Assembly (NCBI GenBank): GCA_021018995.1
Contig: CM037598.1
Location: forward strand, 46,949,185 to 47,013,184
DNA: 64,000 nucleotides
Direction of reading: 5' to 3'
Origin: Chloranthus sessilifolius
Lineage: Eukaryota; Streptophyta; Magnoliopsida; Chloranthales; Chloranthaceae
Shown piece after piece: positions 28,261-60,020 of this stretch (position 1 is the stretch's first letter; each line of letters opens with the position of its first letter). The position numbers and the translations under genes were made by a program. The notes under the pieces are model-generated. The model did no database searches and was not told the DNA's origin. It was given only the letters and a program-made list of their open reading frames with translations.

Positions 28261-29940
28261 CGCAGAATTCCCCAGAAACACAAAAACAAAATGCCCAGGA
28301 TAGCGCGTTCACAGGCCTAAATTGGGTGACTTCCGACACTAATTATTGGCCTAAACCATGCTCTTGTTAAGATCAATCCAAATACTCCTGACTTAGAACA
28401 TATATACCCCAAACAAAACTGAAAAAATTCCCCCCAACATCATTTATACACTTCAACTAAGACCAAACTAAACAAAAAAATGAAGAAATGCCCCCACTTA
28501 CACACTCCAACTAAGACCAAGCTAAACTAAAAAATAAAATAAAAAAGAAGTGCCCCCCATCATTTATGCTCTTAAACATAAGCTAAAGTAAACCAAAATC
28601 TGCTCCCAACACACCCCAAATCAAAATCAGTAAACCCAATCAAACCAAACTCAAAGAAATATTAAATAAATAAACATCACATTCAAAACAAGTCAAATAA
28701 GCTATGAAATAAACTAAACCTAAATTTACAAATGAAATAAAAAACATAATCACTTCATAAATAAATAAAATAATTACAGAATACAGCGAGAATATGCCCT
28801 CTGAATATACAACTTAAAACAAGAAACTTAAAATCTGCATGTTCAAGCAATGTATGAATCCGGATTTATTCGGCAAACCAAAATTCCCATCTTCCCCTCT
28901 TCCCTTAGCATGGCAGCAATTCGACTGCTACCTTGTATTTCCAATCCTGTCAATTCTCAATAATCCATGCAATAAACACAACTCTTTGGGTCAAACTCTC
29001 GGGATACAAAAAACAAGGGAAGAAAAGACATTAATGAAAAAGAAAATGCCCAAAACAAAAAATGCCCCAAATACTTTTAATCCCAAACTTGGAATAAAAT
29101 TCAAAACAACAAGAACCCAAAACTTTTAGCTCACACATTTATAAACTATACCTCCTGAATTACCAAATGACAAGTGTCACATCTTTAAACCCTTTTAATC
29201 TAATTAAATCTAAATCAAACACATACCCCCTCGAAAGACCACAATCCATGACAAACCCAGATGAACCAATAATCACACAACACTTACCCCTTCAAGGAAA
29301 CACAAATCCCAAAACAAAGTAAACAAGCCGATAAGATTTGAACACTTAACACCCATCTAAAACTTTTGAAAACTCACACCTTTTAACAAGTGTCACCTCA
29401 AGTCAAATAAAAGGCTAGAACAAAATATCTTAAACCTTAAATTCAAAAAAAAGAAACTCTCTAAAAAATAAGACACTAAATTATTCGGGACCTTGCCAAG
29501 AAAAATGCCCCCAGCCAAACCCGTCAGAACCAAGTAAACCCTCTTAACAAATCCCATAAAAGAAATTGAACTTCAAGTTAAACTAAATCCTAAAATAAGT
29601 CAAACAAATCACGTAAATCTATCTAATCCGCTAATAAGTTTAAATGAATAAACAAGCACGGCGAAACAAAAAAATGCCCTTTATTTATAATTTAAAATTT
29701 TACAAGTATCACCGGAGGAATACCTCTTGAATTTACAACCCAAAACGAAACCTAAAACTTTAACCTACAACCCAAAATGAAGACTGGGTTCAAAACCGAG
29801 ACGAAGCGAGGAGCAGATTCCGCTTGGAGCGTCCAATCGGAGACTTCAGGGAGAATTGGTTGGGAAATACATCCCTCCACTTTTTACTCTTCTTTTACTA
29901 TCTTCACCTCCACCACCACCGCCTCCTCAACGCTGCCTTC
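28261..29940 (-). other. Spacer between two antisense PMD remnants with repeated 3'-end-like segments
   Basis: On the plus strand an A/C-rich, non-coding stretch with recurrent AAATGCCCC words. On the minus strand, segments ending near 28770 and 29670 resemble each other and the region just after the PMD gene at 54760-54820 (GTATANNCAGAGGG/GGGGTAT followed by AATTAT runs). A third, weaker one is near 29140. They may be old 3' UTRs of PMD genes whose bodies were deleted. Confidence 0.35.
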
Positions 29941-30433: not shown

Positions 30434-32521
30434 TGTTAAGCAGTGAAAAATACCATTTTTTACCTCCTAACCTGACCTCTGTTGGATCCTTGAGCTGACT
30501 AACAAGGTGTTTTAAGTATGTTTTATAGATAAGCAATAAAATCTAGCCTTAGTGTAGATATCCACTTAAAAAGGCCAAAGAAACAATCTGCTCCTCATTA
30601 TGTGTTCACAACAGCCCAAAGGCCTGTCAGTCACGCAATCAGAGCTGTATAAAATCATGAGAAGGTCATGGGATCAACAAGGCATGCTTGAGACCAAGCA
30701 TAGTAGCAAAGAAGACAAATTGAACCCACCAAGAGGTTGTTGAGTGCTAATGGATGAAAGACATCACACCAAAGATAGGTGCCAGCTGAATAAACTCAAG
30801 GCAGAAGCTGTCGAGAAGTTATGAAGCTCAAATGCCGATCTGCCAAGAGGATCCATTAAGCTATTGCAAGGTTCCAGTTGCTTTTCTATAGGTTGTGCTT
30901 ACTGTAAAAGAATCTTGTCGACACCTCACCTAAAGGTGCAGGGGAAGTTGCGAGGTTCAACTGAACTTATCGAGTAGATAGAGAGAAGCTTTCGACAGGA
31001 CCTTTCAGAACCTGTTGAGATGATCCCCAACTTGTCAAACACTTCACCAAGTCGACAAGTTGATTGTAACCTGTCGATAGGATTAACAAGGAACTGAACA
31101 GAAGGTATCGAGAGCCACTTCAATCCTGTCGAGATATGACAATCTTATGGACTTGTGCACTTCAACTTAATGCGAGGTTTTCCAAACCTATCGAAATACA
31201 GAGCAAGCAGACTAATACCCTGTCGAGAAGTTCCCTGAACCTCTCAACATTCATTTTGGGAACTTCTCATGGCCCTTCTTCAGCAGCTACAACTTCTGAA
31301 TTTCGGGCACACGATCCAAGGCATGACAGCGACCCTTGGGGGGTATTTTTAGTATTCAACTAAGCATGAGCGGGAACTCTCACTTCCTCACATGTACTTG
31401 TCAGTTGTGAACCAATAGGAGAAAAGCTTCTAGAAGAGGGATTAGCCAAATCAGCATAACTGCATTTTTCTTTTGAGTTCTGATTGGAAGAAACAGATCT
31501 GAGAAAAAAGTATAAATAGAGGAGCAATCACATTAAAGATCACCCAGAAAATGAGAGAGCCAGAGAGCCTAGTTTGAATTCATTTTCCCTCCAATTTTCC
31601 CCTCCCTTCTCCCTCTTCTTCTTCCTCGCTTTTAGCCATTTATGGTTGGCTAAAACTTCTCGAGTAGCTAGGGTAAGGTTATGAGCTATAATTAAGAGTT
31701 TCAGAGGCTTTGTAATGGATTGGATGCTGCACAGATTGTAGATCTGGGCACAACATTGTAAGTAGTGACATTACAATGAAATCGTGGGATTTAGAGTTAA
31801 TTCTGAGCTATACTTTATTTATTCATATTTGATTTTCCTAGTTTGGATACTCCTGTGTGCTAGCCAGAAATGGGCCGCTTGTAGCCTGGCATTCACAACA
31901 TCTACAATGGTTAACCTATTCTAATCAAGACCATTGGCTAAAGACAATCTCTAGGATGATCTGTGACCATTCAAGTGGATAGGTCATAGCCTTAGGATTG
32001 CTCTGATTCTCTGGTTAAGATCAGATTCTTATACCATGCATCTGCCGGGGTCGAACCTGGGGAGGTTGTAGCCAGAGGAAGGATTGTTGCATATTTGATC
32101 TAAGCGTTGCCTTTGATTCATTTAATTTTCAGTGAAAGACAAAATCCCTAGCTGCTGCTCTCCATCCTTTGATTTTTAATCCATTTTCCTTCACTTCTGT
32201 GTTTTCTTAAAATCTGGATCAACTGCATTTAATTTCTGTAGTTTGTAGTGACAAAAACCCAAAACCTTTCCTCTTTCCTGTTTTAGTGTAGCTCAAATTA
32301 GGATAGAGTGTCAGATCTATTGCAGATCTGGAGATTTACCATAGTTTATTAACATTTTCCCATAGACATACCCTTACTTACCTATCAAAACTTACTACAA
32401 CAGCCTTGTATCTTACAGGTCTAGGAGATTGTAGTTGTGTTGAATCTACCCTCTGTCTTAATTTGATTTGATTTTACTTTTACCATTACACACTAAATCA
32501 GCACACTCGATCTACCCAACA
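30434..32521 (+). repeat. Solo LTR E (Athila-type, same subfamily as D), 2088 bp
   Basis: Starts TGTTAAGCAGTGAAAAATAC, ends TCTACCCAACA; no primer site or polypurine tract adjoins it. Near-perfect five-base duplications flank it, so it arose from a complete insertion by LTR-LTR recombination. U3 holds words of the type CCTGTCGAGA and TCGACAAG (30850-31260) in place of the GCGCGAG words of A, B, C and F. TATAAATAG is at 31511-31519. One quasi-palindrome is near 31960-31995. Confidence 0.85.
31511..31519 (+). promoter_or_regulatory. TATA box of LTR E
   Basis: TATAAATAG about 250 bases after the U3 word array; the clearest LTR promoter in the window. Confidence 0.7.
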
Positions 32522-34616
32522 CCTGGTGACGACTCGATCACGTGCTACAATTATAGTGCATAATTCAATCACACGCACGGTTACATGTGCGTAAATGACC
32601 CCTCAAACCTGCGATCGCACGCCTAGAAACAGGCATGCAATCATATTGAGCAACCTAAAATAGATGCGCAATACCTAACTTTGGATGAAATCTGCACCCT
32701 CACACCTTTTTATCACATAACGGTCAAAATTCTTCTGTCCCATAGCGTAGCCTCACAGGCTGTTCTGGCAGAAAAGAAAGACCTACTCACCCATCCCATC
32801 GCATACCCTTGTATGAGAAGGAAGCATCGACAATACCCATCCCCATCATGATAACATGTACACATACGATATCACCTCAATATCCAGCCCCATTGTAATA
32901 AATTTGCTATGTCCTCATGGCCCATCACGAAAAGCCAAAAGCAAATCTCCCGAAAACGAGGGACACACCGCCTAAAAAAAAACTAAGCCAATCATGACGT
33001 AACCACAACGTGATTCTTTCATAACCCAAGATCTCCCATCGCTAACGACGTTCAGTCGACATCCCGTCGCGAACATCACTACTTGAAAAAAAAAACTCCG
33101 ACAACACATGCCACGCCGTATGACAAAAAGAGGGAAATATTGATCATGTCTCGTCACTAAGGCAAAAGGGTCTCTCTCTCTCTCTATATAATTGATCCCC
33201 ACGTCTCACCAGGACTGACCCAGCACGCAGCCAAAGAAAGGTAGAACCCCCAGGTCCCATCACGACATCATTCCTCTAAGACATTTTATCACACCGACGA
33301 CCACCAACCCCTGCCACAATGGACCCAAAGAGAAGAAAGCTCCAAAGTCCCATCGCGGTACCACTCCCAATAACTCACCAGTCCCATCACGGACCACACA
33401 AGCTACACGTAATCCAGGTAAGTATCAACCCCAGGTAAGTACTACCCACTTTTTTATTTTACTCAATATCCCTCATAAATATATAGTTAGCTATGATTAA
33501 GTCAAATATTTTCAAAACCCGTCTCTCTCGACTCGCGAATCACTATAGTCTTCCCATAAGAGACAATAATTAGTACTCACCGAGAAGGTTAGACGGAGTA
33601 TCCGGCATGCCAAGTGTCGTTTTGACAACCACAATAACAATCGGGTCTACAAATCTCATATAGGTGGATCTGCTCAGCGATGTCTCGGAAGCTACGTTTT
33701 CTGCCGTTTTACTACCAAATTGATCATAAGTTAAAATCCCTAAAATTTTAAAATTTCAATCCAAAATCCCCTTACTAACAAAAAAAAATAAAAAAAAAGA
33801 GAAGAAAAGAAGAACAAAGAAATAAGATAAATAGACCCGACTCACCTTTCTTTAAATACCAAAAAAAAATCTGATTATGCACCCCATCACCCGAGCACAA
33901 TAAGTTACACTTAAACCTGACCTTTAACTCCTAAGACCCCTAAACTCACAATCAAGCGCATTCCCACTACATAGAATTGGATCAAGCGCATACTCCACTT
34001 CACAGAATCATTTGTTCAGATGCATTTGGACTAGAATTCCCAACTTAGAGGCTGACTCCAGATGAATCAAGCGTACGTGCCACTACGCAGAATTCAATTG
34101 AGCACACCTCACAAGACCCATGCCGCAATTACCAGCCCAAATCGGCAATTTCCTTGGGAAACTGAACATTAAGTATATTTAATCTAAGAACTTACAAACG
34201 CCTATTGGAAAAGGAATGCCTGACGCGCATTGGTGTGAGCAATGACGCGCCCGGTCTGACATGACTTACAAAAGTCTTCGATATTACATGATATTTTATT
34301 TTATTATTATCAGTCCCTGGACCTTGTTTTGGATATTTGATTGATGTCCTGGTACCTCGATTGGGTAAAATCACTCTGTTTGCCTGCGCCATGTGACGGA
34401 ATGCGACATGCACCCATAGACTCAGAATGTGCCCTTCGACAGCTACCATTTGCCCTTCAAATTCTTCATTTTAGCTTGCGCTGATAGATAAGAAAGCCAA
34501 GCATGTCATGTTAGCATCTCTAGTTCACATTTGTGATTTCCAAAGAGAAACGAGAAGTCACCTCAAATGAGGGGTGTCTACTTCTTCGACGCGTTCTTAC
34601 TTCGCAAGAGCATGCT
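32522..34616 (+). other. T1 region upstream of the LTR, with CCCATCGCG word array and a conserved antisense peptide
   Basis: No long ORF. From 32740 to 33425 words like GTCCCATCGCG and CCCATCACG recur every 30-90 bases. At 33600-33695 the minus strand encodes a 32-residue stretch that is 26/32 identical to 47734-47829 in T2. From 34150 to 34616 the sequence is alignable with T2 48000-48600. A CT dinucleotide run is at about 33170-33188. Confidence 0.5.
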
Positions 34617-34629
34617 GAAGAGGGGTAGC
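34617..34629 (+). promoter_or_regulatory. Polypurine tract of T1
   Basis: GAAGAGGGGTAGC directly before TGTAGATACCCC; T2 has GAAGAGGGAAATC in the same place. This sets the plus orientation of these LTRs, since their ends (TGTAGATA and TATCTACA) are inverted and uninformative. Confidence 0.7.
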
Positions 34630-34699
34630 TGTAGATACCCCATTTTCCCTCTCAGAATATATAAATTTATTTGGTCAACCTTTGACCTCATATCCCCGA

Positions 34700-35095
34700 C
34701 GTGGGAACCATGCACTGAAATAATAGTACATGGCTAAACACAGGCTGAAATAATAGCTTTGTGTCTTAGATCCCGACGTAGGGAGACTATATACTGAAAC
34801 AATAATATATAGTCGGAATGCAGACTAAAATAATAGCCTCGCATTTTAGACCCTTAACCCTAATGAGGGACCATATACTAAAATAATAGTATATGGCTGG
34901 ACACAGGCTGAAACAATAGTTCTATGGCTCAGGCCCCATACCCCTGACGTGGGAATCATGCAGTGAAACAATAGTACATGGCCGGACACAGGCTGAAATA
35001 ATAGCTCTGTGGCTTAGATCCCAACATAGGGAGACTATATACTGAAAAAATAGTATATAGTCGAAATGCAGGATGAAACAATAACCTGGCATTTC
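34700..35095 (+). repeat. Tandem repeat inside LTR T1
   Basis: About five units of 75-85 bases, each with CTGAAATAATAGTACATGGC or a close variant followed by GACACAGGCTGAAATAATAG. The LTR of T2 has one unit (48728-48795), so the array expanded in one copy or shrank in the other. Confidence 0.8.
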
Positions 35096-35549
35096 AAGTC
35101 CGACCCAGACCCAGACAACCCCGAATTAAGCGCCTAAAACCAAGCGCTCAATTCGATTACACACCAAATCACAAGCGCGCAATCAGTCCCTTCTCAGACC
35201 AGACTTCCTTTCCCAAGACTAACTCGAGACTCGATCACTCGTCTACCATGAGACGCGTGATCAGATTGAGCACCACTTCACCGATGCGCATTTGGCCTAC
35301 GCCCAGCCTAGCCTCACTATCACTGACCCCTAAGTTTCCTCCATTAAACGCTTCGAGAGTGGCACTTAATTGGATTATGCACCCCAAAATGGGCGCGTAA
35401 TTAGTTCTAACGCTATTAGGACTAGGAAACTAGTTGAGCAAGTCAGCCGGTCACTCATTGAGTCGGTGACCGACTCAAAGCAATTAAGCATCGGGAAATC
35501 GACAATTTGATTAAACGCCTGAAACAGGGAGTTTAATTGGAGAAAAACC

Positions 35550-35557
35550 TATAAAAG
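35550..35557 (+). promoter_or_regulatory. TATA box of LTR T1
   Basis: TATAAAAG in CCTATAAAAGA, right after the GCGC/AATT word zone; T2 has TATAAATAG at 49408-49416. Confidence 0.6.
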
Positions 35558-37169
35558 ATTTTTTTCTAATTCGCCCCAGGGGAGGCTAGGCAATTTTCGA
35601 GAGAGAACAGACTTTTTTAGGATTTCAAAACTAGTGAACTCCGAGAATGAGCACATAGAACAACCTAACCATGATTTCGAGATTCAAGCTTCGAATCTTC
35701 GAGATTTCCCTCCTTAGCCCCGGTCCTAGGTAAAAATCTTAGTTTTAGACTTAAGATATTTCTCTTAGTTTTAATTTTCAATCCTAGACCGTAGCACCCT
35801 TTTTGGACCCAAATTCTCTATATCTTGCTCTAGTCCTCTATTTCTAGAACCAGTTCTTAATCCGACAGTGCGACCCACAGATCCCAGACTTTAATTCCGT
35901 CCTAAAATCTCAATTTCCAGTCCTATCATTAATCTCTGGTTCCAGGTCTGAGGCTTTAGAACTAGTCCTTAATCATGCAGTCTAATTTTTTGATTTCAGA
36001 CCCAAATTCAGTCCTAAAATTTTAAATTATAATTTTAATTTCCTATTTTAATACCTCTAAGAATCCTAAATATTAATTTTAGTTCCTACAATTTTAGTTT
36101 TACCATTTAATTCATAATTATTACTCCGAAATTGACTCTGAAAAATCCAAAAATACTATTTCACAGTCCAAAATCCAATTTATCTTTAATCTCAGCCACC
36201 CGATTTGCCTAAGGGAGGTTACGGAGGGTACTCAGAAACTAGGCCAATCCTCCTTAGCATAGCGGGCCCAAAACCCTTTTTTTTTGGAATTACTTTAATT
36301 AGGATTATAATATTAGTTCCATAATTTCTTCTTAGAATTTTAGTATAGTCAATTTACATGCTTTATTTCAATTAAATCCTTAGAATAATTGCTTTGATTA
36401 GAACTCCAGTAAAATTAGTTCCTTTATTTTAATTAGATAATTCTAGCATAGTTAATTCCTCGCTTTATTAGACCCCAGTATCAGTAATCAGTCCTTTTAT
36501 TTTAGTTAGAATCTTAGTATAATTAATTTATTGCTCTGATCATAATTCTAGTCAAATTAGTTTCTTTATTTTTAATCATAATTTAGTATAGTTAATTCAT
36601 TGCTTTAATCAGAATTTTAGCAAAATTAGTTTATTTAATTTAATTAGAATTTAAATAAAATTAATTCATTGCTTAAATTAGAGTTTTAGTAAAATCAGTC
36701 TTCTACATCAATTCAAATTCTGGTACAACTAGTACACGTGCTTTACTTAGAATTTCAATATAATCAGCATGCTTAGTTTAATTAAAGTTACATTAAAATT
36801 AATACACCTGCATTCCTAGTACAATTAAGAGACTGATGTTAATTGGACTTTTAGTAGTATTAGAACACTATATTAATTAGAATTCTAGTAGTGCTAGGAA
36901 ACTAAATTAAATAGACTCCTGATAGAATTAGAAAACTAGATTAAATAAATTATAATAAATTTCCACATAACTAAACTCACAACAAAATTGAGAAATCTAA
37001 ACTGATCAGAATTATAACAATAACGGGAAGGGAAGAAAAATTAAACTATCTAAATATAAGAAAAGACATAGCTGCTGACATTCGCAGGCGGACGATTCAG
37101 TATAGAAGTAACCCACACGCGTTCTAAGGCATGATCATTGATGTGTTGCAGCGTTGTTAAATATCTACA

Positions 37170-37330
37170 GCTGGCAATCACAACAAACTAGGAACCTTCT
37201 TAGAAAACCTTTTATTTCTAACCCTCCAAACGTCGCATCGCTAGAGTCCACCTGGGCAGAATTGGAGCCACTGATTCAACGGGGATCAAGAGGAACCCAG
37301 AAAAAGCGTGCACCAATAATCGTGAGCAGA
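37170..37330 (+). promoter_or_regulatory. Putative primer site and leader after LTR T1
   Basis: GCTGGCAATCACAACAAAC follows the LTR; T2 has GCTGGCGATCGCAACGAAC. The position fits a primer binding site starting at TGGC (37172); I cannot assign the tRNA. Leader similarity to T2 (GGAACCCAGAAAAAGCGTG) ends near 37320-37345, where element F begins. Confidence 0.55.
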
Positions 37331-46296: not shown

Positions 46297-46420
46297 GCTG
46301 ACCTCCTCCTTCCCAATGCTACTCATTCTGAAAGTCACACCACTGTCGGAAGCCCCGTCAGGCTAAAGATCATGTGAAACCATGAACCATGGAAGAAACA
46401 ACATCAAAATCCGATGGGTG
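46297..46420 (-). pseudogene. 5' end of a PMD-type gene in T2, cut by element F
   Basis: Minus strand 5' UTR and an ATG at 46326 (MSSIGKEEVS), aligned by its 5' UTR to T1 29940-30060 and by position to the other PMD copies. Only about ten codons remain before F. TATATATAG at 46496-46504 is its likely TATA box. Confidence 0.45.
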
Positions 46421-46495
46421 GATTATAAGTTATCGTTGAAACTCAGGACTTAGAGAAAAATAGGAATAAATGAAGAAAAATGATAAGAACTCGGG

Positions 46496-46504
46496 TATAT
46501 ATAG
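46496..46504 (-). promoter_or_regulatory. TATA box of the T2 PMD remnant
   Basis: Minus strand CTATATATACCC, with GCGCACAA/AATTGCGC words just upstream (46520-46760). Confidence 0.45.
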
Positions 46505-46520
46505 AAACTAGCTTAATTAA

Positions 46521-48600
46521 ACGCCCGGAATGAAATGCGCAATGCAATTATGCACATATATAGAAGCGCACAAACATAATGAAGCACACCCCAAGAGGCA
46601 CGCAATTGAACTTCCGCCCATACACAATCCTGACAAAATAATCGCGCACAGCTAATCCTGCTCATAATTAAATTATACGCTAATGGTACTGCATGGAATC
46701 TGAAGGGCCACTCTCATAGTGACCTAGCGACACTCCGATTGCACACACTAACTCTAGTGCATAATTGGTTTACCCACTGGTATTGATGCATGGAATTCAA
46801 GTCAACACCCAAACACCTCCGCTCTGCCAGCGCTACGACTCTCCGATTGTGCGCTATTCACAGAGTGCATAATGACATTGCACGTAGACTCACTAATGTG
46901 TAATCACCTCTTTAATCCCATAATCAAGCGCACGTGGCCCACTGTGTAACTTAGTTAAATGCCCAGTACCCTACGCGCAATACTCAGCTACAACCACATT
47001 TCAAACAGAATGCACACCCTCACACCCTTTTGTCCCATCACGATCAGAAATCCTCTTTCTCCTCTGTCCCATCGTGTGACCTCACAGGCCATTTATAGAG
47101 AGAGAGAGAGTCGTTGGCCACACCTACATCCCACCACGGCAGGACTTGCAGCATCCAAACACATCAGTATAAGTCAGCTATGTCCCACCGCGGCACTAAA
47201 ACTTCACCACACGACCTAAGGAAGGCTCAACCAATGTCTCATCGCGAAGAGTTAAGAATGAGCCTCCTGAAAATCCTATCACACCACTAAGACCAGAGTC
47301 GAATCCCATCCTCACACCATTCAAACTAACTCCAACCCATTACTTAAGTAAGATCTGCCAAAGGAAGAAACACCATCATCCCCCATCATGACATTGAGAC
47401 AATTAAAAAATCATTAACCATGCACATGTCCCATCGCGATGCAACTACAACTTGATCCCATCACAAACCTGCCTCATCATGACATTACTACCCAAGACAC
47501 TCGGACACATCTCGTCATGATGCACAATCAAGAAGGGAAGGCTCAGTCAATTTCCCATAGCAGAGAGTCGAACCTTCCAACCATTGCAAATCACACCTCC
47601 CCGAAATCCCATCGCATAACTTTGCATAACCAATAGAGGGGAAGGCTCGATCATGTCTCATCATGAAATTAGAGAGCCCACTTCCCGAATCCCTTGTCAC
47701 GCAACAATCATTAGACTCCACCGCAACCGAAACATCAGGCATACTAAGTGTTGTCTTGACAACCACGCAAACGGGTGGGTCCACAAATCCCATACCGGTG
47801 GATCTGCTCAGTGATATCTCGGAAGCCACATTTTCTAAAGATTTACAATCGAATTTATCTTGAGTTAAATTCCCAAATTTTTAAAAACAAAAGAAAAATA
47901 TAATAATAAAAAATAAAAAAAATTGATGATAATGAACTCCTATCTGTCAAACTTTCACTTCTCAACACTCCAATCCGTTCTTTCCCCTATGAAACTGAAA
48001 ACTAAATATATTCAACTCTGAGAATTCATAAATGTCCACTGGAAAAGGGACACCTGACATGCCATTGGTGTGGGCAATGATGTGCCCAGTCTGACATGAC
48101 TTGAGAAAGCCTTCGCCATTACATGATATTACATCTTATTATCGGTCTCTGGACCTTATCTCTGGACATTCGTATGACGCCCCTCGGTACCTCGATTGTA
48201 TTGTATATCCCTCTGTTTGATTGCCCCTTGCACCTGCAAATTAGGATATCGACTCCCCTACCGTTTAACTACCCCTTGCAGTAAGTCGCGATATGCGACG
48301 GGATGCCCCTTGCACCCACGGATTAGGTTATGCCTCTTTTCGCCCGTTGACTGCGACTAGCAGCACATCATGATATGCGGCGGGATGTCACTCACATTCA
48401 CGACATAGAATACGCCTTTTGACAACTACCACTGGGCCCCCAAATGCTCCATTTTAGCTTGCACTAATAGATAAGAAAGCCAAGCATCTCATGTCAGCAT
48501 ACTCGATTCACATTTATGATTTCCCAAGAAAAACGAGAAGGCACCTTGGATGAGGGGTGTCTACTTCTTCGACGCATTCTTATTCCACAAGAATGCACCG
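46521..48600 (+). other. T2 pre-LTR region, no long ORF
   Basis: GCGC/AATT words (46520-46960) and CCCATCGCG-type words (47030-47670). The antisense peptide region 47734-47829 is shared with T1. From 48000 to 48600 it aligns with T1 34150-34616. An AG run is at about 47096-47110. The empty version of the E insertion site is at 46715-46740. Confidence 0.5.
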
Positions 48601-48613
48601 AAGAGGGAAATCT

Positions 48614-50617
48614 ATAAATACCCCCATTTTTCCCTCTCGAAATATACAAACCTATTCAGTCAACCTTTGACCTTGCCCATGATCTCCCAAAAAGGATAAC
48701 CTTCTCTAAAGACTTTAAAATCCTATATGGGGACCATGCACTGAAACATTAGTACATGGTTGAGACCCAGGTTGAAATAATAGCTCTGTGGCTCGGACCC
48801 AGCTCAAACCCAGGAAAATCTCGAATTATGCACCCTATCTAGCGCGCGTAACTCAATTGCACGCCCCATGGCTGGCACGCAATTGGTCCCTCTTGGACCA
48901 GGATTTCACATCCCGAGAACCACCTTAGACCTTGATTATGCACTCCTCCGAGAGCACACAATCAAATTGCACGCTTTGTACCCATCACGCAATTAGTCCA
49001 TTTTGGATTGGCCTTGTACCCTTCTAAAAACTACCTAAGACATGATTGTACGCCCTACCTAGAGCGTGCAATCAATTTATGCGCCTCAGTACAAGCTTAT
49101 AATTGGTTCCTAAGTGAACCCGATCTCTAAGTCCCTAGATCACCTGAATTCCCTATTAAGCGCATGTATTCAGGTGCTTAATTGATTGAGCACACTAATC
49201 AGGGCACACAATTAGTCTAATTAGACTAGAACTAGGATACCGGCTGAGCTAGACATCCGGTCACTCACTGAGTCGGTCATCAACTCAGAGTGATTAACCG
49301 CCTGAAACAAGGTGCGTAATTCAATTAAGCACCCCATATAGGGCATGTAATTGAAATCCACTAACAAATTGAGTGCACCCCAAAGGGCGCGCAATAGGCC
49401 AAATACCTATAAATAGACCCCACCATCTCATCCCAAAAATAATCACAATGCAGTCAGTGATTGACTTTTCGAGTTCCTCGCTTTCAAGCTTAGGATTTTG
49501 AGATTCCTCTCTGCGGCCCTGGCCTCAGGTATACTTTTCTCGTAGTTTTTCATTCTTCTAGTTCTAGTTCTTCGTTCGGGTCCTTAGTTCTAGTTCTTCG
49601 CTCTAGATCATTAGTTCTAGACTTTAGGTTTTTAAGCTTTTAGTTCTAGATCTTAGATTTTAAATCTCTTTAATCCTTAATTCTTACCTTTTTCCCTAGT
49701 TCTAGTTCTCAGGTTCTTGAACCAGTTCCTCTTCTTTTAATTTTATTTCTAGATTAAGGTTCTAGCCCTCTGGTTCTTAAATTATAGATCTTAGATCTTA
49801 GGTTTTAATCTAAATTTCTAGTTTTCTTATTCTAGTTCTTAGTTTCTAGAACCAGTCCTTAATTTTAATCTTAAATTCAGTCTTAGAATTTTAATTTTAG
49901 TTCTAAATCTCTAGTCTTAGATCTTAGGTTCTTATTCTTAGACCAATTTTGACGTTTTAGTTCCTAAATTTTAGTTCTAATTTTTAACTTGATTCTCAAA
50001 ATCCTCAATTTTCGATCTGTAAATTCATAATTTCAGAATAAAAAATTAGTTTTTCAATCCATATTATTACTAAAATAATCTCTAGCCACCCGATTTTCCC
50101 ATGGGAGCTTACGGAGGGTACTCGGGAACGGGGCTGATCCTCCTTAGCATAGCAGGCCCAATACCCTTTTTTTTGGAATTCAGAGAAAATTAGGATACTT
50201 TGATTAATTAGAGTTTTGGTAGAATTAATTATTTAATTATAGTTTTAGTAAAATTAAGAAGATTAGTATTTCTAGTAAGATTAGGAAATTAATTAGATTC
50301 TGATATAACTAGATTTTTACTAGGATTAAGCCGTTAATTAGACTTTTAGTTAGATTATGAGACCCATCTTAACTAGGATTCCCCTGATTAATTAGACCCC
50401 TAATAAGATTAGAGAAAATTAGAGCCCTGAAAATCATAGCGAGAGTAAGAAAGGTAAAGTAGTTAGAAGAGAATTAGGAAAACTAGCTTAACTAAACTTA
50501 ACGGCGACCTAGTGCTGCTGACATCGGTCAGCTAATGATTCAGTAAAGAGAACAACCCGTATCTCCACCTCGAAAGGGGTGATCAGTGACGTGTTGTAGC
50601 GTCAATAAATATTTACA
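48614..50617 (+). repeat. LTR of T2 (2004 bp)
   Basis: Starts TATAAATACCCCC (a decayed TGTAGATACCCC) and ends AATATTTACA. Shorter than the T1 LTR mainly because it has one unit of the 80-base repeat. TATAAATAG at 49408-49416 follows GCGC/AATT words (48840-49400). TCTAGTTCTTAG repeats at 49540-50000. Confidence 0.82.
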
Positions 50618-50760
50618 GCTGGCGATCGCAACGAACCAGGTATTTCCCTATGATTTACTTCTTCAGTTTCAATACTTAATTACCTCTAAACAAACCCCAC
50701 TCTTTCAGGGGATCGAAAGGGACCCAGAAAAAATGTGTACCAACAGCGCCCCAGCTCATG
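50618..50760 (+). promoter_or_regulatory. Putative primer site and leader after LTR T2
   Basis: TGGCGATCGCAACGAACC at 50620-50637, then a leader with a GGGACCCAGAAAAAATGTG segment shared with T1. tRNA not assigned. Confidence 0.5.
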
Positions 50761-50846
50761 CGCATGATCAGAGCGTCCCCCGGTCACTATGCGGGTGACA
50801 TTTTAGATTGCGCGTCAGCTTCAAAGCGCGCGATTGGCCCTCATCC

Positions 50847-50854
50847 TATATAAG
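50847..50854 (+). promoter_or_regulatory. TATA box of the T3 PMD gene
   Basis: TATATAAG about 175 bases before the ATG, preceded by GCGCGTCAGCTTCAAAGCGC words. Spacing and words match PMD copy b in T1. Confidence 0.6.
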
Positions 50855-51023: not shown

Positions 51024-54000
51024 ATGGAGTCTAAGGGCAGTGATCGTCTCTACACAATTGCTTTAGAGATGGAGCAGATGATGGTGAGAGTTCTGAGGTT
51101 CGTACTGGCACTAAGGCCGTAGTAGAGGGCAACACTGAGGTGGTATTAAGGGAAGATGAACCGGAGGGCGGTGACGAGGAATAGGATGATGATGACAATG
51201 CTGCTCTGCATCAGGGTGAGGGTGCGATATGCACCCCTTTGGAGGAGTTCTTCACGAGAGACCAGGTAGGTACCTATGAGCAAGAGTCTTCTTTTATTAC
51301 TTAGGAATTTAGGTTAGACTTCTTAAGATCTGAAACCTCTTTAATTTATGTCGAACTTGCATGTAGTGTGCGTGCGCATTCATGCATCATCTTTGTGTCT
51401 AGTTTTAGGGAATGCTTATTTTATTATTCTATCTTAATTTTATCCTATTTTGTGTGTTTCATTATAGACTATCTTTGTGGTTTGTGATTATCGTATGTTT
51501 GTTGCTTTATCTTATTAGCATTAGGTTAATTTGTTGCTTGTAGTTCTTGTTAGTTTTATCGTAGTTATAGGTGTTAGTCTTACTTTGCTCCTTCATATTT
51601 TCTATTTATTATTTGTTAGGAGCCCCCGGTGCTGGCTATCAGCACTGTGTGGTCAGACTCCAACTCCTAGTATCGTGCCTTGCCTGAGTTCCAGCGGGCA
51701 CGATTGGCAGCTTTCGGCTTCAGGTCGATCCTGGAGTTGGAGCCCTTCCAGGTCGACCGGGGTCTAATCGGGGTAATTTTGGAGTGATGGAGGGAGGAGA
51801 AGCAGGCACTACTCTTCCCAATATGGATGTTGCTGCTGACTCTAGAGGACTGGTTTTGCATTACCAGACTCAGATTCGAGGGGGATTATCTGGCAGTATG
51901 CGAGGAGATTCTTAGGGTTGCATATCGTTACAGTGGGTCCAGCTCAGGGCAGGTCCATCTCACTTAGTTCTTTGACATGTTTACCAGTGCATTCGTCCCT
52001 CCGAGATGCCACTCGGAGTCGAGAGTGTTATTCAAGGTGCGACATGTGGCGATGGCTCGCCGAGAGGCTATGGTGGAGCCGGGAGTGGCGGCAGACCGAG
52101 TGCTCCGTGCATTCTTGATGCACTTCCTTGGGGTAGTGCTCTTTTCTTCTTCTACCTGTGGGTGCATCACATCGAGTTATTTCTGACATTACTCGGGAAC
52201 CTAGACAGAGCCCCAACCTACGCCTAGGGTGCGACAACATTGGCACACCTCTACGAGCAGTTGTTTAATAGAGGGAGAGGCGAGGCCACCACTGGAGGTT
52301 TTCTCCCCTTTCTTCAGGTGAGTTTTTTTATTAACCGTTGGTTTCTTCATTGTCTTAGTTGCCTAGTCTTTCATTTTAGTGATAGTTTTGTCTTCCTCCA
52401 GTTCTGGGCGTATGACCACTTCACCTTCTTACGCCCGCAAGTTCCAACGGAGATCACCGTTATGTTCCCATGGATGCACGTGTGGCGGAGGGCATTAGGG
52501 TGTCGTCACAATTCTTCATATCTCAAGACTGCATGAGGTCTCTTCGAGGACATGCATGTAGGGCAGGTACGTGCTGTCTACATTGTCAATGTGTCAGCTT
52601 TTCAGGTTTTGGATTTATTGATGATTGTTTCTTTGTTTCTGGCTATAGGTGATTTAGAGGCCCTATGAAGTCGGGGAGGATGCCGAGCAGCTGGTGAACT
52701 AGTCTGGCCGGCCCTTCTTTGATGTAGACATCTGGGTTCAATTTCTTTGAGAAGGTGGAGCATATCCACCTTTCTCGGGTAGCTCAATAGCTGGGGTCCC
52801 TCAGGGAGTTCTTTTAAAGATTCGCCACAGGGTGGCAAAGAGGATGACTAATCCCCTTGACCAGTACTTCGCATCAAAGATGAAGGCTCAGATTGCTGAT
52901 TTCAAAGCCGAGGGGACTAGGGTGATAGGGGCATGCGATGAGGCAGATGCCCGAGAGTTTGTGAGGTGGTGGTCGACTCTTAACGCGTCCCTTCCACAGG
53001 AGTGGTTCTTTTTCTATTGGCGGTCTTGAGTCCGCCTCACCAGTGAGGGAGAGGCTAGCCGCACTGGAGGAGGGCCACCTCGGTGAGGGTGTCCGTGGAT
53101 CAATAGATGCCCTGCACTAGGCGATGGAGATGGGACATGCTCCTCAGCCTGATGAGGAGATGTTGCATTCCTTCTAGGCTAGGATAGTGGAGGATCAGCT
53201 AATGGCTCAGTTGATAGAGACTCGACGATCTCTGGTGAGTTGGTTCAATTGTTTTGGTTGTTAGCACATATCCATCACTGCTTTATTTGATTCTCCTTGT
53301 GCTTGCCAGACTGAGAGGGAGGGTGAGGTCGCCAGCCAGGTAGCAATGATCGAGCTGCTGCGAGGTCAACAACAGGCCGGTCGTGAGGTAGAGGCAAGCC
53401 TACATTCAGAGATTGAGCGACTGGTGAGTGTTTATGTTAACTTGGTTTTGGTAGTCATTAGCATCATCTGTTTTGTCACTTATGATGCATTTATTATGCA
53501 TCATGTTTGCATAGGTCAGAGTTATCGGGTGCTGGGGGGTCTGCTCCAGCATTTGATCCTTCTTTGACTGCATCATCTAGTTGGGAGGATCCCATGATAG
53601 CTCAACTTTGGGCTGAGCTGGAGCACTAGGTGAGTTTCTTTTGTCTTTTGAGTTGTTTTATTATTTATGTTTCACTTTGCTTGATGATTTATTAATATTT
53701 TATGGTAATTCAGCGTTAGGTTGCTGAGGACCTCCAGATGAGGGAGGCTATAGCCGCTTCTTTACGTCGCGAGAGTTAGGTACAATGTGTGTGTATTAGT
53801 TTGTTTTTCTCCTATCGATTTGGTTTTATCTGATATGTTTTGTTGGTTGGTTTAGTTCTTGTGCAGGTCATTCCTGACTTGGCTCCCAAGGCTCCTCCTC
53901 ACAAGTCCACTCCTATCGCCACTCAGGTATATTATAGTTGGCATAGTTATATTTCATTTTCGATTTCTTGGTCGTAATATTATCTGATGTGCTTTCTTTT

Positions 54001-54666
54001 TTCGATTTCATGTTGCAGCCATCTACGCCTGAGGCTCCTCCTGCACCGCCTACCGATCCAGTGACCGCTGCAATTGTTGAGCGTCTTCTTCGAGAGAGGG
54101 CAGACCTGGTATGCTTCTTATTCTCTCTCGTCATCTTTTCCTTTGCGAGTGTGCTCGGTTCTTGATTTTGTGTTATCATGCAGGCTCGTCAGCTTGAGGA
54201 GGCACATGTCGAGGTGGTGTGGGAGCACGTAGCTCCAGGAGGAAGGCAAGTTCTCGGGGATACGCAAAGTTGTGAGGACTTGCTTGTTGACATGCTCATT
54301 GTGCAGGGGACTCAGACTGAGCTGATAGAGGCTACTCATCAGTTGTTGCAGTTAGAGATGTAGGCTACGATCGATCAGCTGTAGTATCGACTACCAAGGA
54401 GTGAGCGAGGAGTCCGCCGGATGGCCGGTCATCTTGCCCAGTTGGAGTCGGTGGGCACTGGCTCTCGGGCTGGCCAGCCTCATCGTACAACATGTGAGCA
54501 TGTCAGGGACTACGCTCATGAGGATTCCATTATTTGGGATTTACTTGTTGAGGGTCCTTCGCGCTCACAGTCTAGACAAATTGCCAGTCAGGAGAGCAAA
54601 GGAGGTTCAGTTGCTGGACCTTCCCCTCGCAAGGAGTGCCCTCCGACTCCAGGTGCCGGGATCTAA
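51024..54666 (+). pseudogene. Plant mobile domain (PMD) gene, ten exons, degenerate
   Basis: ATG at 51024. Exons inferred from GT-AG borders and frame: 51024-51265, 51620-52317, 52402-52566, 52649-53234, 53310-53423, 53515-53629, 53714-53779, 53867-53926, 54019-54108, 54184-54666. Introns are 75-92 bases except the first (354), and nearly all fall between codons. Exon 1 is acidic. Exons 2-4 hold the PMD fold: EEKQALLFPIWMLLLTLEDW, then VLRAFLMHFLG, YEQLFNR, GGFLPFLQ/FWAYDHF across a splice site, and EHIHLSRVAQ. The tail is helical, with a Pro-rich linker (exons 8-9). PMD proteins (PF10536; MAIN/MAIL1 in plants) act in gene and transposon silencing, and PMD ORFs are known in Tat elements. Several stops (often TAG for Trp or Gln) and frameshifts near 51075, 52135 and 52745 break it. 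The frame of exon 6 is uncertain. Confidence 0.72.
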
Positions 54667-56282
54667 TTTTTAGTGGATCAGTCTCCTGATCCATGGGTTG
54701 ATGATACTGGGGATAGCGACGATCGACCACCCCAGAGGTAGCGTAGGGAGTAGGGTTGTATATATTTGTTTGTTCATTGTATACACAGGGGGTATGCCCT
54801 CGGTGGAAAATGTAAAGAAAATTATATATATATACAGAGATCTTTGGTTTAGATGTACCTGGCTTCACTTTTCCCTTCTTTATTTTACCTTGCGTAGTTT
54901 AGCTGGTGACTTTTGATGTCGTTGTCTATTATTAGGACTTGGATGCTCTTTGGGCTGGTCCAATAATAGTCGATGGTTACTCTATACCTGCACCGAATGG
55001 CAAAGTTATTAGTAAGTTTATTTTCTCCCCTGGTAATTGTCAAGGGGGGAGGTATCTCAGACTGAAGCCAGGTAATATAGGATGGATCATTGTACCAATT
55101 TTTTTACACAAAAAGGAAAATAATGTAACAGGGAAAAAAAATAACTGAAAGAGAAATCCTAAATCTAAAAAAATGCCCCAGTGTAGGAGCGTGATGGAAT
55201 AGGCAGTGTGGTATTTTCAGCGGCCTTCTTGAGGCGATGACTTCATAATCCCCTATTTGTGAGCAAGCAGGGGTCTCAAGCTGACTCCTTTTCCAAAATA
55301 AAAATGCCCCAGTGTCAAGGGGCAATGGAGCGTTTTTGATTTTCATGAGCACTTGGGCCGAGGAGCCATGTGTATTTTGATGAATTAGTGTAGAGGAAAT
55401 TCCTTGATACTGTTTACCGGACTAGGGGAAGTTGTTTGGTTACATTAGTCATATACGAGGGTTTTACCTTTGGTAGTAATCATCTTATCTCATAGTCAGC
55501 ACTAGAGGGTGAGCGGTAGATAGTAAGTGGTTGCATCAGTAGTCATTCACGAGTTTTCAGTTTCATATCTGGGGATAGCTAGGAGGGCTATGACTCACTG
55601 TCTAAAAACCAAATTAAAGTTAAAAGAGGGGGTAAGGCTCAATGACGTGAGACAATAGTTTCTATCTGACAATTTCTAAAAGAGATAAGTAATAATTTTT
55701 TTCTCAGGTGTGTATGGGGTGCCAAGATTGAGCTCTCCATCATGTTTCGATACCATCAAAGTCTCACATTCTTTGGTTAGCAAAAGTTTTTCCTTCTCGC
55801 ACCACCTTATGACAAAATCTAATAGTATTGGACACTAGGGATGGCCTCGCGGATTGCTTATACTTTCCTAGTAAGGTTACCATGAATGTCCTCCCGATTT
55901 ACTTATGCTTCCCTGGGCTCATTGACTTGTTTACCTATCGTATTGCACTCTCTTAATTATGTACATGTATATATATATTTTCTGAAAGCAACCTGCTGAC
56001 ACAAGAATAGTGAGTTTTGATTGAACCTAACATCTTCATTTTATGTGCTCTAACATCTCCTCCAATGGCGAGGGGAAAGGGGTGAGAATCGGGTGCTACT
56101 TATACTTTTGGAAGATGTCAGGTATTCCACTAGTCCTTTTGATCAAATTGCCCGAATGAGAAGGTGGGCAGTGAGTTAGAAACCTTCAAGGATATCTTGG
56201 GAGATGAAGGCATACGACCAATGAATGAGTCTCGATGACTACGGGGGCAGTATATATAGGTATCTGACTACAGGATACATGA
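54667..56282 (+). other. Region between PMD gene and integrase, T3
   Basis: No ORF supported. 54760-54840 looks like the PMD 3' UTR, resembling segments at 28770 and 29670. AAATGCCCCAGTGT occurs twice (near 55170 and 55305). The rest is unique-looking and non-coding. Confidence 0.4.
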
Positions 56283-56548
56283 TTATGATACTAAGGGTAG
56301 TATTTCCTGAGGTACATGGTGTTCTAAGGGCTGGGGAGTTCCTCCCTGTCCTGGCTCACCAGCTTCTATGTATTCCCCGACCGTTATGACATACGGGCTC
56401 TCCCAGTTCGGTTTCAATTTTCCCTTTGGATGGGCATGTTTGGAAGGCATGATTTTCTTCAAGACTAGTTCTCTAATTTCGAAAGTTTGCTCGAGGACTT
56501 TCTTATCGTCAGCTCTGGCCATCCTCCTCTGGTATACTTCTGCATGAT
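56283..56548 (-). pseudogene. pol: C-terminal part of a Tat-type integrase
   Basis: Minus strand encodes AEVYQRRMARADDKKVLEQ and, further on, GKLKPNWESPYVI, the familiar end of Tat-lineage Pol. It is not Athila-like (compare 16100-16358). The 5' part of the frame is replaced by LTR G at 56549, so the apparent ORF starting in the LTR is an accidental fusion. Stop at 56283. Confidence 0.75.
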
Positions 56549-57587
56549 TGTTGATTGGCGGATTAGGGTGTGCTGATTTTATTACGTGGTAAGAACAAAT
56601 TGAAAAAAAAAAAAGAAAAAAAGATGGAAACAACATAATTAAAGTAATCCTAAGCCTGCAAGATACAGGGCTATTGTAACAAGTTTTGATAAGTAAGAGT
56701 TTTTCCTATAGAGAAATTGATCTAGAACCCAAAATAGGCTATAATAGTAGGCCTCTAGATTTGGCTACAGATTTGACAATCCTAAAGAAAGGGAGTTGGG
56801 TGTCACAACTACACGAAATTACCTACTAAAAGAAGAACCAAAAGACCTATAGGTTTAAATAGACTTTAAATCAAAAATTTATTTCTTAAAACAACTTACA
56901 ATACAATGTCATCACAGTTGCAATCACTACAGAGAAGCCAGATCTAACATCTGATAGCGGTCAAGTGAAATAGAGGGGAGCTTGTTCCTGCACAATCTCT
57001 CACCAGGCTATAAGCTCAAGTGCAGAGAAAAAGAATCCATCTTAGATCTGTGACCAAGAATGCCCTAGGGCTGTAGTCTGTCTACTCTAATGTCGCAGGC
57101 TATCCACAAAGGCTCCCTTACACACAAATGATGAGATAGAATATGAAAACTGCTGCTACCACCATGGTCCCCAGGCTACAAGCTCAAGCTTCCATGGGCC
57201 TTTCAATAAGCTCAAATCCTAAATGTATATTATAGCCTGAACAGAACTATGAACAAATAGGAAAATAACAAATTGAGTAAGCATTCAAACATAAATTCCA
57301 TTGATCTGATGTTACTAACAACGAAATATCTCAAGGCAGTAGCCTTGTGCACAATAACTCAACAAAAAATCCCAATGTTTAAATGACCTATTACAAAACT
57401 TAATAAAACTACACCTAAATGCTTACCAAAGAATTAGCCAGCAAGTGCTGGGCCAAGAGAGAAGAAAAAATGGAAAAAGAAGTGATCAAACCATAACCCT
57501 AACCCTAGTCTGCTTGAGCTCTTAGCCGACAGAGGCTGAAGGATAAAGTGAATGATAGTTTCTAAGTTACAAGTGCAACTTAAATAC
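56549..57587 (-). repeat. Element G: 3' end of an Athila-type LTR
   Basis: Minus strand ends CCAATCAACA at 56549, the canonical form of the end that is AATA in C. It aligns with LTRs B and C, including a telomere-like run (57493-57507) and a quasi-palindrome near 57061-57110. It has a deletion at about 56835 relative to B and stops at 57587, where D inserted. It inserted into the integrase of T3. Confidence 0.82.
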
Positions 57588-60007
57588 TGTTTGCGCAGCC
57601 TACCTTGCAATTATTATATGATTAAAAATAGCCGATTAACTGCATAAACTATAGCAAGGTTAAACTAAGGTAAGCTGCCAGTCCTACAAGAACCAAGGCT
57701 GTTGTAGCAAGTTTTAAGAGGTAAGTAAGGGTATGCCCACAAGGAGCTGTGGTTCAACTATAGTAAATCTCCAGATCTATGGTAGATCTAGCACTCTATC
57801 CTAAATTAAACTAAACTAAAGCAGGAAAGAGGAGAGGTTCTAGGTTTTTATCACTTTTACTACAAACTATAAAAGATAAATGCAATTGATCCAGATCTAA
57901 TCGAACACAGAGATAAGGGGACATATAGAAAAGATGAAAATTCAAAAGGGTGAGAATAATAGCTAGGGGTCTTGGTCTATTACTGAAAATCAAAGGAATC
58001 AAAAGTAGTGCAGAGAACTGATTTGCAATAATCCTCTTTTCTGGCTCCAAGCTACCCAGGTTCTCCCGAATTTACCAATGAATCAAAACAATCCTGAGGT
58101 TAGGATCTGCCCTTCTACTGGATACAATCCTAAGGCTATGATCTGCCCTTCTACTGGATACAGTTCATCCCCGAGATTGCTACAACTTATTGGTATACCT
58201 AGGTTCCCCCGAATGAGGTGAGGTATAAGAATCCAATCTCCACCAATGGATCAAAGTAATCCTGAGGTTAGGATCTACCCTTCTACTGAATACAGTCCTA
58301 AGGTTATAATCTGCCCTTCTACTAGATATAGTTCATCCCTGAGATTACTCTAATCTATTGATCTTAATTGGAACAGGAAAAGTATTGCAGATGTTGCAAG
58401 TGCCAGGCTAACAAGCTCCCCATTTCGGACTGGCATCCACAGGAATATCCAATCCAGGGAAATCAAATATGAAGAAGTGAAATATAGATTAGAATCACCT
58501 TTAAAAATCACAATATATTGTAAGCTTATAATACCATTGTGCCTAGATCTGCAATCTGTGCAATATACAATCTCCTACAAGCCTCTGAACTCTCAGTTTA
58601 CAGCTCAAGACCTCACCCTAACTATTGAAAAGAGTTTTGCCACTCATGATTGGCTAAAGAGAGAAAGGGAGAAGAAGGAAGAAGGAGGGAGAATTTGGAG
58701 GGAAAAATGGATCTCGCCCTAAGCTCTGGTTCTCTCTAATTCTGGATGTCTTCAATGTAATTTCGTCAAGCTTTTATACTCTCCTCCTCTGTCCTCAGAT
58801 CCGTTTCAGCCAATCAGAGCCCAAGAGAATAATTTTATTATTCTGGGCTGTTAATGTGGACGATTCTCTTCTAGAAGCTCTTCTCCTATCTGTCCACAAT
58901 TATCAAATGCATGCGAGGCCATTAGGGTTTCCAATCTTGTGTAGTTGAATACTAAAAATACCCCCAGGGGTCGCTGACATGCTTTGGGATGTGTGCACAA
59001 GCTTTTGCAATTGGCGACTGCTGAAGGAACACACTGAGAAGTTACCAACACGAGTGTTGAGAGGTTCAGGGAACCTCTTAACAGGTTCTGAGTGTACTTG
59101 CTCTTCATTTCGACAGGATCTCCGTGGCTTTTGACAGGATTGGCTAGCTCTCGGCAGGATCTGGAAACATCTCGAGATGTTGAACTGCACTTGTCGATAG
59201 GATTGATGACTCGTCGATAGGATCGAAAGCTCGTTGCATCGTTCTTCCCATTTCTTCATTCATCCTCTCGACAAGTTATACTAATCCTGTCGACTGGTTA
59301 TACAACTTAACACTGAGCTCTCAACAAGTTGGCTCAATCCTCACGAGAATGAGTTATAGCATCAGGCAAGCTATTGACATGTTGGATTGGATAGCTCGAC
59401 AAGTTCTGTTGAACGTCACAACAAGTATCTGGAACCTCTCGATAGGTTCCTCTTTCCAACTCCATTCCTCTTGATAGGTATGCTTACGGAACTTGTCGAC
59501 ATGTGTTTTAAAACCTCGCGACTGCTTAACTCCTGTGTACTACAACCTCTCGAGAGCTACTGCCATCCTCTCAAATACTTTAGTATTTCTCCTCAGGACC
59601 TCTCGACATGTTATAATTGTCCTTCAAAACTTCTTGACAACTTATGGATCTTCTCAAAATCTTAGATATTTGGGCATCGGATTCCATCGGCAGCTCAGGC
59701 CAACCTCTCGACAGGTTTATCCTTATGCTTCCACAACTGGAACACCTCTCACTTGTACTGTTCTTCATTTGTTCAACATCCAGCAACCGCTTGGTGGATT
59801 CAATCTTCATTCTCTGCAATTGCACTTGGTCCCAGGCATTTCCAGTTGAGTAGCAAATTGCTTTGGCTCTTTTAAGTGAATATTTGCACTAAACTTGCAA
59901 TTCATTGCTTATCTACAAAATACACTTAAAACACATTATTATTCTGCTCAAGGGTCCACCAAAGGTTAGGTTAGGAGGTGAAAAATAGTATTTTTCACTG
60001 CTTAACA
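57588..60007 (-). repeat. 3' LTR of element D (2420 bp)
   Basis: Minus strand starts TGTTAAGCAGTGAAAAATAC at 60007 and appears to end GCTGCGCAAACA at 57588. TATAAAAG at 58771-58778; CTCGACAGG/CCTGTCGA words at 59040-59740. Four copies of GATCTGCCCTTCTACTGGAT lie in two units about 168 bases apart (58088-58345). The 3' end is diverged from E, so the left border is less sure than the right. Confidence 0.82.
58771..58778 (-). promoter_or_regulatory. TATA box of LTR D
   Basis: Minus strand TATAAAAG in GAGAGTATAAAAGCTTG, same position as in E. Confidence 0.65.
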
Positions 60008-60020
60008 CACCCCCAAACCT
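60008..60020 (-). promoter_or_regulatory. Polypurine tract of element D
   Basis: Minus strand AGGTTTGGGGGTG directly before the LTR, preceded by GGGACTAGCAAAGCTT as in C. Confidence 0.85.

Follow-up and report, generated by a model that had tools for sequence, protein, structure and literature searches.

An intron-rich antisense gene for a plant mobile domain protein in a dispersed Ty3/gypsy-type retrotransposon family of Chloranthus sessilifolius

A 64,000-nucleotide stretch of the Chloranthus sessilifolius genome (the window, on contig C15 of its assembly) contains on its plus strand, at 51024-54666, a ten-exon gene for a protein with a plant mobile domain (PMD), and on its minus strand the remnant of a retrotransposon integrase; gene and integrase converge within one dispersed element of the Ty3/gypsy type. 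The best overall explanation, with a probability of roughly 0.8, is a retrotransposon that carries an accessory, intron-bearing PMD gene in antisense orientation between pol and the 3' long terminal repeat (LTR). The anatomy of the antisense gene in the element, taken by itself, is close to secure.

Copies of the gene are dispersed through the window's own 2.17-Gb assembly. A probe composed of exon 2, intron 2 and exon 3, for which 40 of 3,437 first-look candidates were scored, gave 41 matches: the window itself, 39 further copies, and an additional small fragment belonging to one of the 39. The 39 other scored copies lie on 13 contigs and are 75-80% identical to the probe; the true copy number of the family may be far above the scored count. 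Intron 2 (84 nt) is crossed by all 39 alignments, each of which falls short of the part of the probe that it covers by at most 31 nt; the probe includes this intron and may favour intron-bearing copies, with exons making up 91% of its length. A second probe (exon 10 and downstream DNA) gave 40 scored matches, including the window, of 3,444 candidates, with 76-82% identity when the window is excluded. At G000:C8:42540584 and 42558213, 17.6 kb apart, two PMD blocks with a shared orientation are perhaps a tandem or nested pair. No relatives were found in viral contigs.

Four copies, designated C12, C8, C1 and C9, were retrieved with their flanks. In C8, window positions 50807-56433 form a single alignment of 5,804 columns (80.8% identity), and in C9, positions 50807-56548 form a single alignment of 5,866 columns (79.1%), so that the sequence from the PMD promoter to the integrase, which is on the other strand, is unbroken in two of the four copies. 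On the minus strand of C9, colinear with the integrase tail of the window, the domains rve (35.7 bits, cut-off 32.6) and Integrase_H2C2 (34.4 bits, cut-off 25.5) were identified, along with an SH3_Tf2-1 match of 25.8 bits that falls below its cut-off of 30. The tail in the window (56283-56548) has no Pfam match of its own and was taken to be integrase on the basis of known motifs; the domains at the colinear stretch of C9 bear out the original prediction, made from the window sequence alone, that the end of an integrase, there called Tat, converges on the gene from the minus strand. Because the copies are dispersed and run unbroken from PMD to integrase, the PMD gene is an antisense gene of the element and not a neighbouring host gene. 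The element most likely belongs to the Tat/Ogre lineage, an assignment based on its layout, its integrase, and integrase and putative primer-binding-site (PBS) motifs.

The arrangement of the element was pieced together from several copies. An LTR of the element's family ends in ACCAACA at 50747, directly upstream of the PMD promoter in the window, and the same right edge is present in two copies outside the window. In the copies C8, C9, C12 and C1, sequence upstream of PMD extends beyond the position equivalent to 50747 without that LTR, which therefore interrupts the upstream region in the window; judged from these alignments, the family LTR at 46303-50747 was inserted separately and is not the PMD copy's own 3' LTR. 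An arrangement in which the two LTRs of the window are the pair of one element that encloses the PMD gene was rejected, as the gene lies outside them, and the flank of the LTR copy at 32430-37319 has no similarity to the PMD upstream region. Beyond the point at which copy C12 ceases to match the window (53095), another LTR of the family was found. In C12 the LTR end ACCAACA is followed by GAC and, three bases on, by TGGTGATCGCGATGGG, a PBS-like sequence with a TGG motif that may be of the Arg type. After it comes a gag-like frame in the direction of the LTR. Since LTR, TGG motif and gag-like frame follow one another with no PMD between them, the PMD gene is not a sense 5' open reading frame (ORF) in C12. 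Upstream of the PMD gene in C12 and C9, two of the three copies for which upstream DNA was retrieved, there are reversed fragments matching window positions 47213-48332 and 33432-34307, and the two copies match each other in a single alignment of 5,986 columns (76.9%) from these fragments to past the PMD promoter. The reversed fragments look as the element's own 3' LTR should; no LTR was found within the 5 kb retrieved upstream of the gene in C8. The inferred order of the element would be LTR, gag, pol with integrase, antisense PMD gene and 3' LTR. The converging integrase, together with the reversed LTR fragments of C12 and C9, gives the PMD gene the placement of an aORF-3R, antisense and between pol and the 3' LTR.

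The borders of the ten exons were set by motif and then corrected against other copies; the end of exon 2 and the start of exon 6 were corrected by copy alignment, and the remaining borders are motif-located. The joined exons, with introns removed and X at stops, match the profile PF10536 with 58.5 bits (E 8e-16, cut-off 34.9) over profile positions 1-246 of 347, in agreement with the PMD-type protein originally predicted on the plus strand, and part of exon 2 of copy C12 alone scores 38.7 bits. In the encoded product a charged C-terminal part comes after the plant mobile domain; this part has no Pfam match at E up to 10. The T content is 44-57% in the introns and 16-30% in the exons, and when the intron mask was rotated round the gene the observed contrast was reached by only 10 of 3,642 shifts. 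GT and AG are present at 17 of the 18 intron ends (one border being misplaced by 2 nt) against at most six in any shift, a count that is not independent because the borders were picked on GT and AG. The introns appear to be in phase 0. The predicted TATA box of the gene's own is TATATAA at 50847, 177 bp 5' of the ATG, and is kept in all five aligned copies. Solved structures gave no match at E up to 10, and no Rfam family matched the 46-57 kb portion of the window at gathering scores.

Table 1. Features of the antisense PMD gene, its element and the surrounding repeats (window coordinates)
Feature	Position	Strand	Basis or remark
TATA box (TATATAA) of the antisense PMD gene	50847..50853	+	Kept in 5/5 aligned copies
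Exon 1	51024..51265	+	Frame broken in window; length a multiple of three in 4/4 other copies
Exon 2, N-terminal portion of PMD domain	51620..52317	+	Profile match, copy alignment
Exon 3, PMD domain, starts FWAYDH	52402..52566	+	Profile match, copy alignment
Exon 4, end of PMD match and region after it	52649..53234	+	Profile match, copy alignment
Exon 5	53310..53423	+	Motif borders, copy alignment, exon length
Exon 6	about 53513..53629	+	Acceptor CAT here, CAG in copies C8 and C9
Exon 7	53714..53779	+	Motif borders, copy alignment, exon length
Exon 8	53867..53926	+	Motif borders, copy alignment, exon length
Exon 9	54019..54108	+	Motif borders, copy alignment, exon length
Exon 10, up to first TAA	54184..54666	+	Motif borders; probe of exon 10 and downstream DNA matches 39 other scored copies
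PMD 3' flank and spacer	54667..56282	.	Colinear in copies C8 and C9; in C1 to 55963
C-terminal integrase remnant, converging on the PMD gene	56283..56550	-	Domains from the colinear C9 stretch
LTR of the PMD element's family, upstream of the PMD promoter	46303..50747	+	Right edge ACCAACA; left limit is the start of an Athila-type element
Second LTR copy of the family	about 32430..37319	+	Right edge ACCAATA; strong divergence on the left, where the limit is uncertain
Fragments of the PMD-upstream region of another family copy, in opposite orientation, left of the 32430-37319 LTR	28684..29777	+	Similarity
Athila-type LTR, whose edge cuts the PMD element's integrase at 56551	56551..60008	-	Repeat comparison; name presumed

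Most of the introns are conserved among copies. Both GT and AG are kept in five of five copies for introns 1, 2 and 3, and in two or three of the three other copies that reach them for introns 6-9. An alignment of ten copies across exons 2-4 has intron 2 (75-86 nt) and intron 3 (79-83 nt) in every copy, one of which has lost the intron 2 donor, and the other introns stand at matching places in the copies that could be aligned. The ten GT-AG-bordered exons of the original prediction are thus mostly upheld by the copies, except that the acceptor of intron 5 has decayed in the window: it is CAT there but CAG in C8 and C9, so the acceptor used in the prediction is probably not ancestral.

Retrotransposons are expected to shed introns at each cycle, because introns in the sense orientation are spliced from the genomic RNA and hence lost. 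In an antisense gene, the genomic RNA would carry the introns as their complement, which could not be spliced there, and reverse transcription would copy them, whereas the PMD gene would be spliced when transcribed from its own promoter. Survival of the introns through antisense placement, as originally proposed for all nine, is the most likely explanation; the introns of other copies agree with it, the mechanism being deduced from orientation, and it is strengthened by copy C12, in which the LTR precedes a gag-like frame without PMD. Absence of the introns from intact family members had been named as grounds for abandoning the proposal; they are present in other copies, and those compared are all decayed.

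The PMD copy in the window is a dead pseudogene. In frames chosen for openness, its 861 codons include 16 in-frame stops, of which 14 are TAG, two TGA and none TAA, whereas the other two frames contain 28 TAG, 57 TGA and 10 TAA (Fisher p 1.6e-5 against the chosen frames). There are also at least five frame changes, one in exon 1, one in exon 2 and three in exon 4. The mix of stops fits C-to-T decay of methylated DNA at CAG-type sites. Nine other aligned copies have 30 TAG, 21 TGA and four TAA stops in exons 2-4, which makes the TAG bias strongest in the window copy. As a protein database query, the broken PMD of the window returned nothing at E 1e-3 whereas an intact PMD from the same genome (L003) returned 273 matches, so the window PMD is either far from annotated proteins or too decayed to match them.

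Some of the introns appear to be older than the element's possession of the gene. A profile search of the genome with PF10536 listed 128 matches, and 20 of these loci were retrieved; they were rejected as members of the PMD retrotransposon family, having no nucleotide similarity to it at E 1e-5. Seven loci retrieved with long flanks, including five of the 20 (L005, L006, L010, L012 and L020), share one repeat, a Mutator-like element (MULE). In the copy examined (L023/L024, G000:C10, about 2720-12260 of the joined stretch), the family is about 9.5 kb long, has inverted-repeat-like ends, and encodes a transposase (PF10551, 88.8 bits) on the strand opposite the PMD gene, with no fusion of the two. 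In the MULE family, one PMD exon starts A-W-S-Y-E-H directly after AG, and the next starts V-T-W-D-P-Y or a near variant; exon 3 of the window starts F-W-A-Y-D-H, and exon 4 starts V-I-(stop)-R-P-Y. Introns 2 and 3 are identical in codon and phase, on the acceptor side, to introns of the MULE-family PMD genes. Among the 17 loci L004-L020, five of which (those named above) were placed in the MULE and the others not placed, 13 show the first intron site, 11 of them with its AG intact, and 12 show the second, for which the search pattern demanded AG. Common descent is the best explanation for two introns that agree in codon and phase. Because the MULE-family genes have introns at those codons, introns 2 and 3 would predate the capture of the gene by the retrotransposon, and if they are shared by descent, the gene probably did not enter the element by way of a sense mRNA. 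The MULE-borne genes thus resemble the retrotransposon gene as mobile PMDs with two corresponding introns, but their carrier is a DNA transposon.

By contrast, locus L003 (1501-2595) is an intact PMD gene that matches the whole profile in one frame with 322 bits and has no intron at the intron-2 site; it is likely a host gene, and its best match in the protein database is a Nelumbo protein (54%). The original prediction spoke of a host domain kept as an intron-bearing gene: the gene is intron-bearing, but the domain is not simply a host one, since PMDs are also carried by MULEs. Three full-length, stop-free PMD matches are among the 128 listed, two of them about 14 kb apart on contig C2.

There is a weak to moderate case that the coding frame was kept in the active lineage, with copies drifting neutrally after insertion. 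Variants shared by at least two of ten copies fall at codon positions 1, 2 and 3 in the numbers 111/86/156 (p 2e-5), compared with 153/117/146 for variants found in a single copy (p 0.07; contrast p 0.036), and in introns 2 and 3, serving as a control, shared variants number 18/8/14 (p 0.15). Transversions are distributed 15/9/24 when shared (p 0.03) and 75/58/60 when single, a contrast (p 0.04) that makes the two barely different. Of 34 exon-by-copy cells, 25 hold an exon whose length is divisible by three, and lengths differ among copies as in 249/252/255 and 717/720/723; among the nine exceptions are the three cells of exon 6, its border being two bases off in this count, and one of the hits is the truncated exon 4 of C12.

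Several observations weigh against the best overall explanation. Only two of the four retrieved copies reach the integrase (C1 ends at 55963 and C12 at 53095), and neither reverse transcriptase nor the second RNase H (aRH) was seen in these copies by motif and ORF listing. The gag-like frame of C12 scores 14.7 bits against PF03732, below the cut-off of 24.1. No other copy keeps both ends of intron 4 (C1 has the donor, C8 and C9 the acceptor), and for intron 5 the donor is kept in C8 and C9 with the acceptor shifted by two bases. All ten compared copies have stops in exons 2-4, from one to ten each, and a working gene was not among them. Between copies, exons resemble each other no more closely than introns do: exon/intron identities are 0.819/0.863 in C8, 0.809/0.822 in C9, 0.744/0.771 in C1 and 0.822/0.821 in C12. 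Finally, transitions have the same distribution when shared (96/77/132) as when single (78/59/86; contrast p 0.54), and part of the third-position signal can therefore be repeated decay at methylated sites.

One alternative is a passenger, a PMD-bearing DNA transposon that landed antisense in an ancestral element and was copied along without benefit. The decay of every compared copy, the exon identities that do not exceed those of introns and the indifference of the transitions to codon position would all be expected of it, as would the occurrence of both intron positions in MULE-family PMD genes of the same genome. It is nevertheless considered unlikely: exon lengths vary mostly in threes, shared transversions favour third positions, the TATA box is kept in all five copies, and the PMD region has no nucleotide similarity to the MULE loci. 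If instead the useful product were the antisense RNA, acting as double-stranded RNA or by transcriptional interference, and not the protein, precedent would exist, as portions of two papers describe retrotransposon antisense transcripts that can regulate elements (PMC7264820, PMC12786077); a purely RNA role needs no exon lengths in threes, however, and is judged quite improbable. A sense accessory ORF beside the 5' LTR, of the Ogre ORF1 type, with 46303-50747 as that LTR, would be favoured by the plus-strand TATA box in the LTR at 49408 (35550, a similar place, in the second LTR copy) and by the end of the LTR only 277 bp before the ATG. This arrangement was dropped as extremely improbable, because four other copies run past the junction without the LTR, the LTR of C12 leads to a gag-like frame and not to PMD, reversed LTR fragments lie further upstream in C12 and C9, and the integrase converges. 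That the gene is a normal PMD gene of the host with an element merely inserted nearby, an alternative that the original prediction had named as a refutation, is barely conceivable given the 39 other scored copies on 13 contigs and the two of four retrieved copies that run unbroken into integrase, even though the genome has at least one intact PMD gene, L003, which lacks an intron at the intron-2 site.

Both antisense ORFs and PMDs have known precedents among Tat/Ogre elements. The antisense, intron-bearing gene resembles the aORF-3R of Tat-lineage elements such as maize Grande (gene23), rice RIRE2 and Silene Retand, which is likewise antisense and between pol and the 3' LTR. The accessible text of PMC7264820 states that gene23 of Grande has a nuclear product and that a promoter upstream of it, belonging to the gene itself, drives its transcription, and calls for a search for antisense and spliced transcripts. 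A survey that detected young Retand elements in 34 of 617 species reports antisense coding regions in every such element and TRP28 (Transposase_28, PF04195) in 97% of clusters, according to the sections available (PMC11963269). Whereas the aORF-3Rs surveyed there were found as ORFs and mostly encode TRP28, the C. sessilifolius gene has its PMD spread over exons and no match to TRP28, only PMD being found in its N-terminal part. Carriage of a PMD by an LTR element is shared with PMD-bearing Ogre elements and PMD-A Gypsy elements: as far as the consulted parts of these papers state, PMD is present in 57% of Ogre elements among extra ORFs of at least 250 codons (PMC6317226), the clades PMD-A1 and PMD-A2 are Gypsy-encoded (PMC5418596, Ikeda et al.), and a screen of plant LTR retrotransposons met PMD more often than any other non-canonical domain (PMC9289625). 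Introns played no part in the 2019 ORF survey of PMD-bearing Ogre elements, with its threshold of 250 codons, in contrast to the gene described here; Ikeda et al. may have met introns by way of a gene predictor. A review of December 2025 names Ogre and EVADE, in the portion seen, as notable exceptions to the intronless state of plant LTR elements and as sources of subgenomic RNAs (PMC12786077); the C. sessilifolius element is similar in having introns, but they sit in an antisense gene. No description of an intron-rich antisense gene in a plant LTR element was found in a partial search of the literature, and earlier work could describe such introns.

Some plant proteins use a PMD in transposon silencing. 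The PMD protein may help the element, perhaps by interfering with a host silencing complex of the MAIN/MAIL1 type, a speculative proposal, akin to the counter-defence cassette suggested in the original prediction, that is put forward tentatively. More doubtful still is the speculation that the antisense strand is an intron sanctuary, in which ancient introns are kept through reverse transcription and are useful in making the transcript resemble a host mRNA that is spliced, exported and a poor substrate for small-RNA silencing, while the PMD protein competes with the host silencing complex as the sense RNA is targeted. Anti-silencing use of PMDs has been suggested for MULE PMDs (PMC5418596) and extended to elements (PMC8616336), as speculation in the passages available from both papers. 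Tea PMD genes themselves give rise to phased small RNAs in abundance, according to part of PMC10673657, which weighs against the idea of a poor silencing substrate.

A dispersed family that keeps an intron-rich antisense gene offers a natural experiment on intron loss per cycle of retrotransposition, and illustrates how a eukaryotic gene can travel in an LTR element together with its introns. The intron positions common to MULE PMDs provide a handle on the direction of transfer, host to element or the reverse, which Ikeda et al. leave open in the accessible part of PMC5418596, and on whether the route was through DNA or RNA. Surveys of extra genes in plant LTR elements that are based on ORFs can overlook those with introns.

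Much of the remainder of the window consists of other repeats. Nested elements that we take to be of the Athila type occupy 1-45 kb and 56551-64000 and continue into L021/L022; in one of them, the LTRs lie near 7874-10601 and 19661-22347 and contain blocks that are 84-94% alike. The next 20 kb to the right of the window, where the rest of the PMD element's integrase was sought, has only Athila-type similarity. Within the LTR of the PMD element's family, the TATA box at 49408 is followed, up to 50709, by a GGTA resembling a donor site, an extended T-rich tract and a TTTCAG resembling an acceptor, identified by eye, which together might form a leader intron. Some 100 bp of the LTR (50076-50180 and 36187-36291, also L029/L030 14607-14513) are 84-87% alike between copies and among its best conserved parts; in the window copy this block contains the palindrome CCCATGGG, and it is perhaps a constrained RNA or regulatory element.

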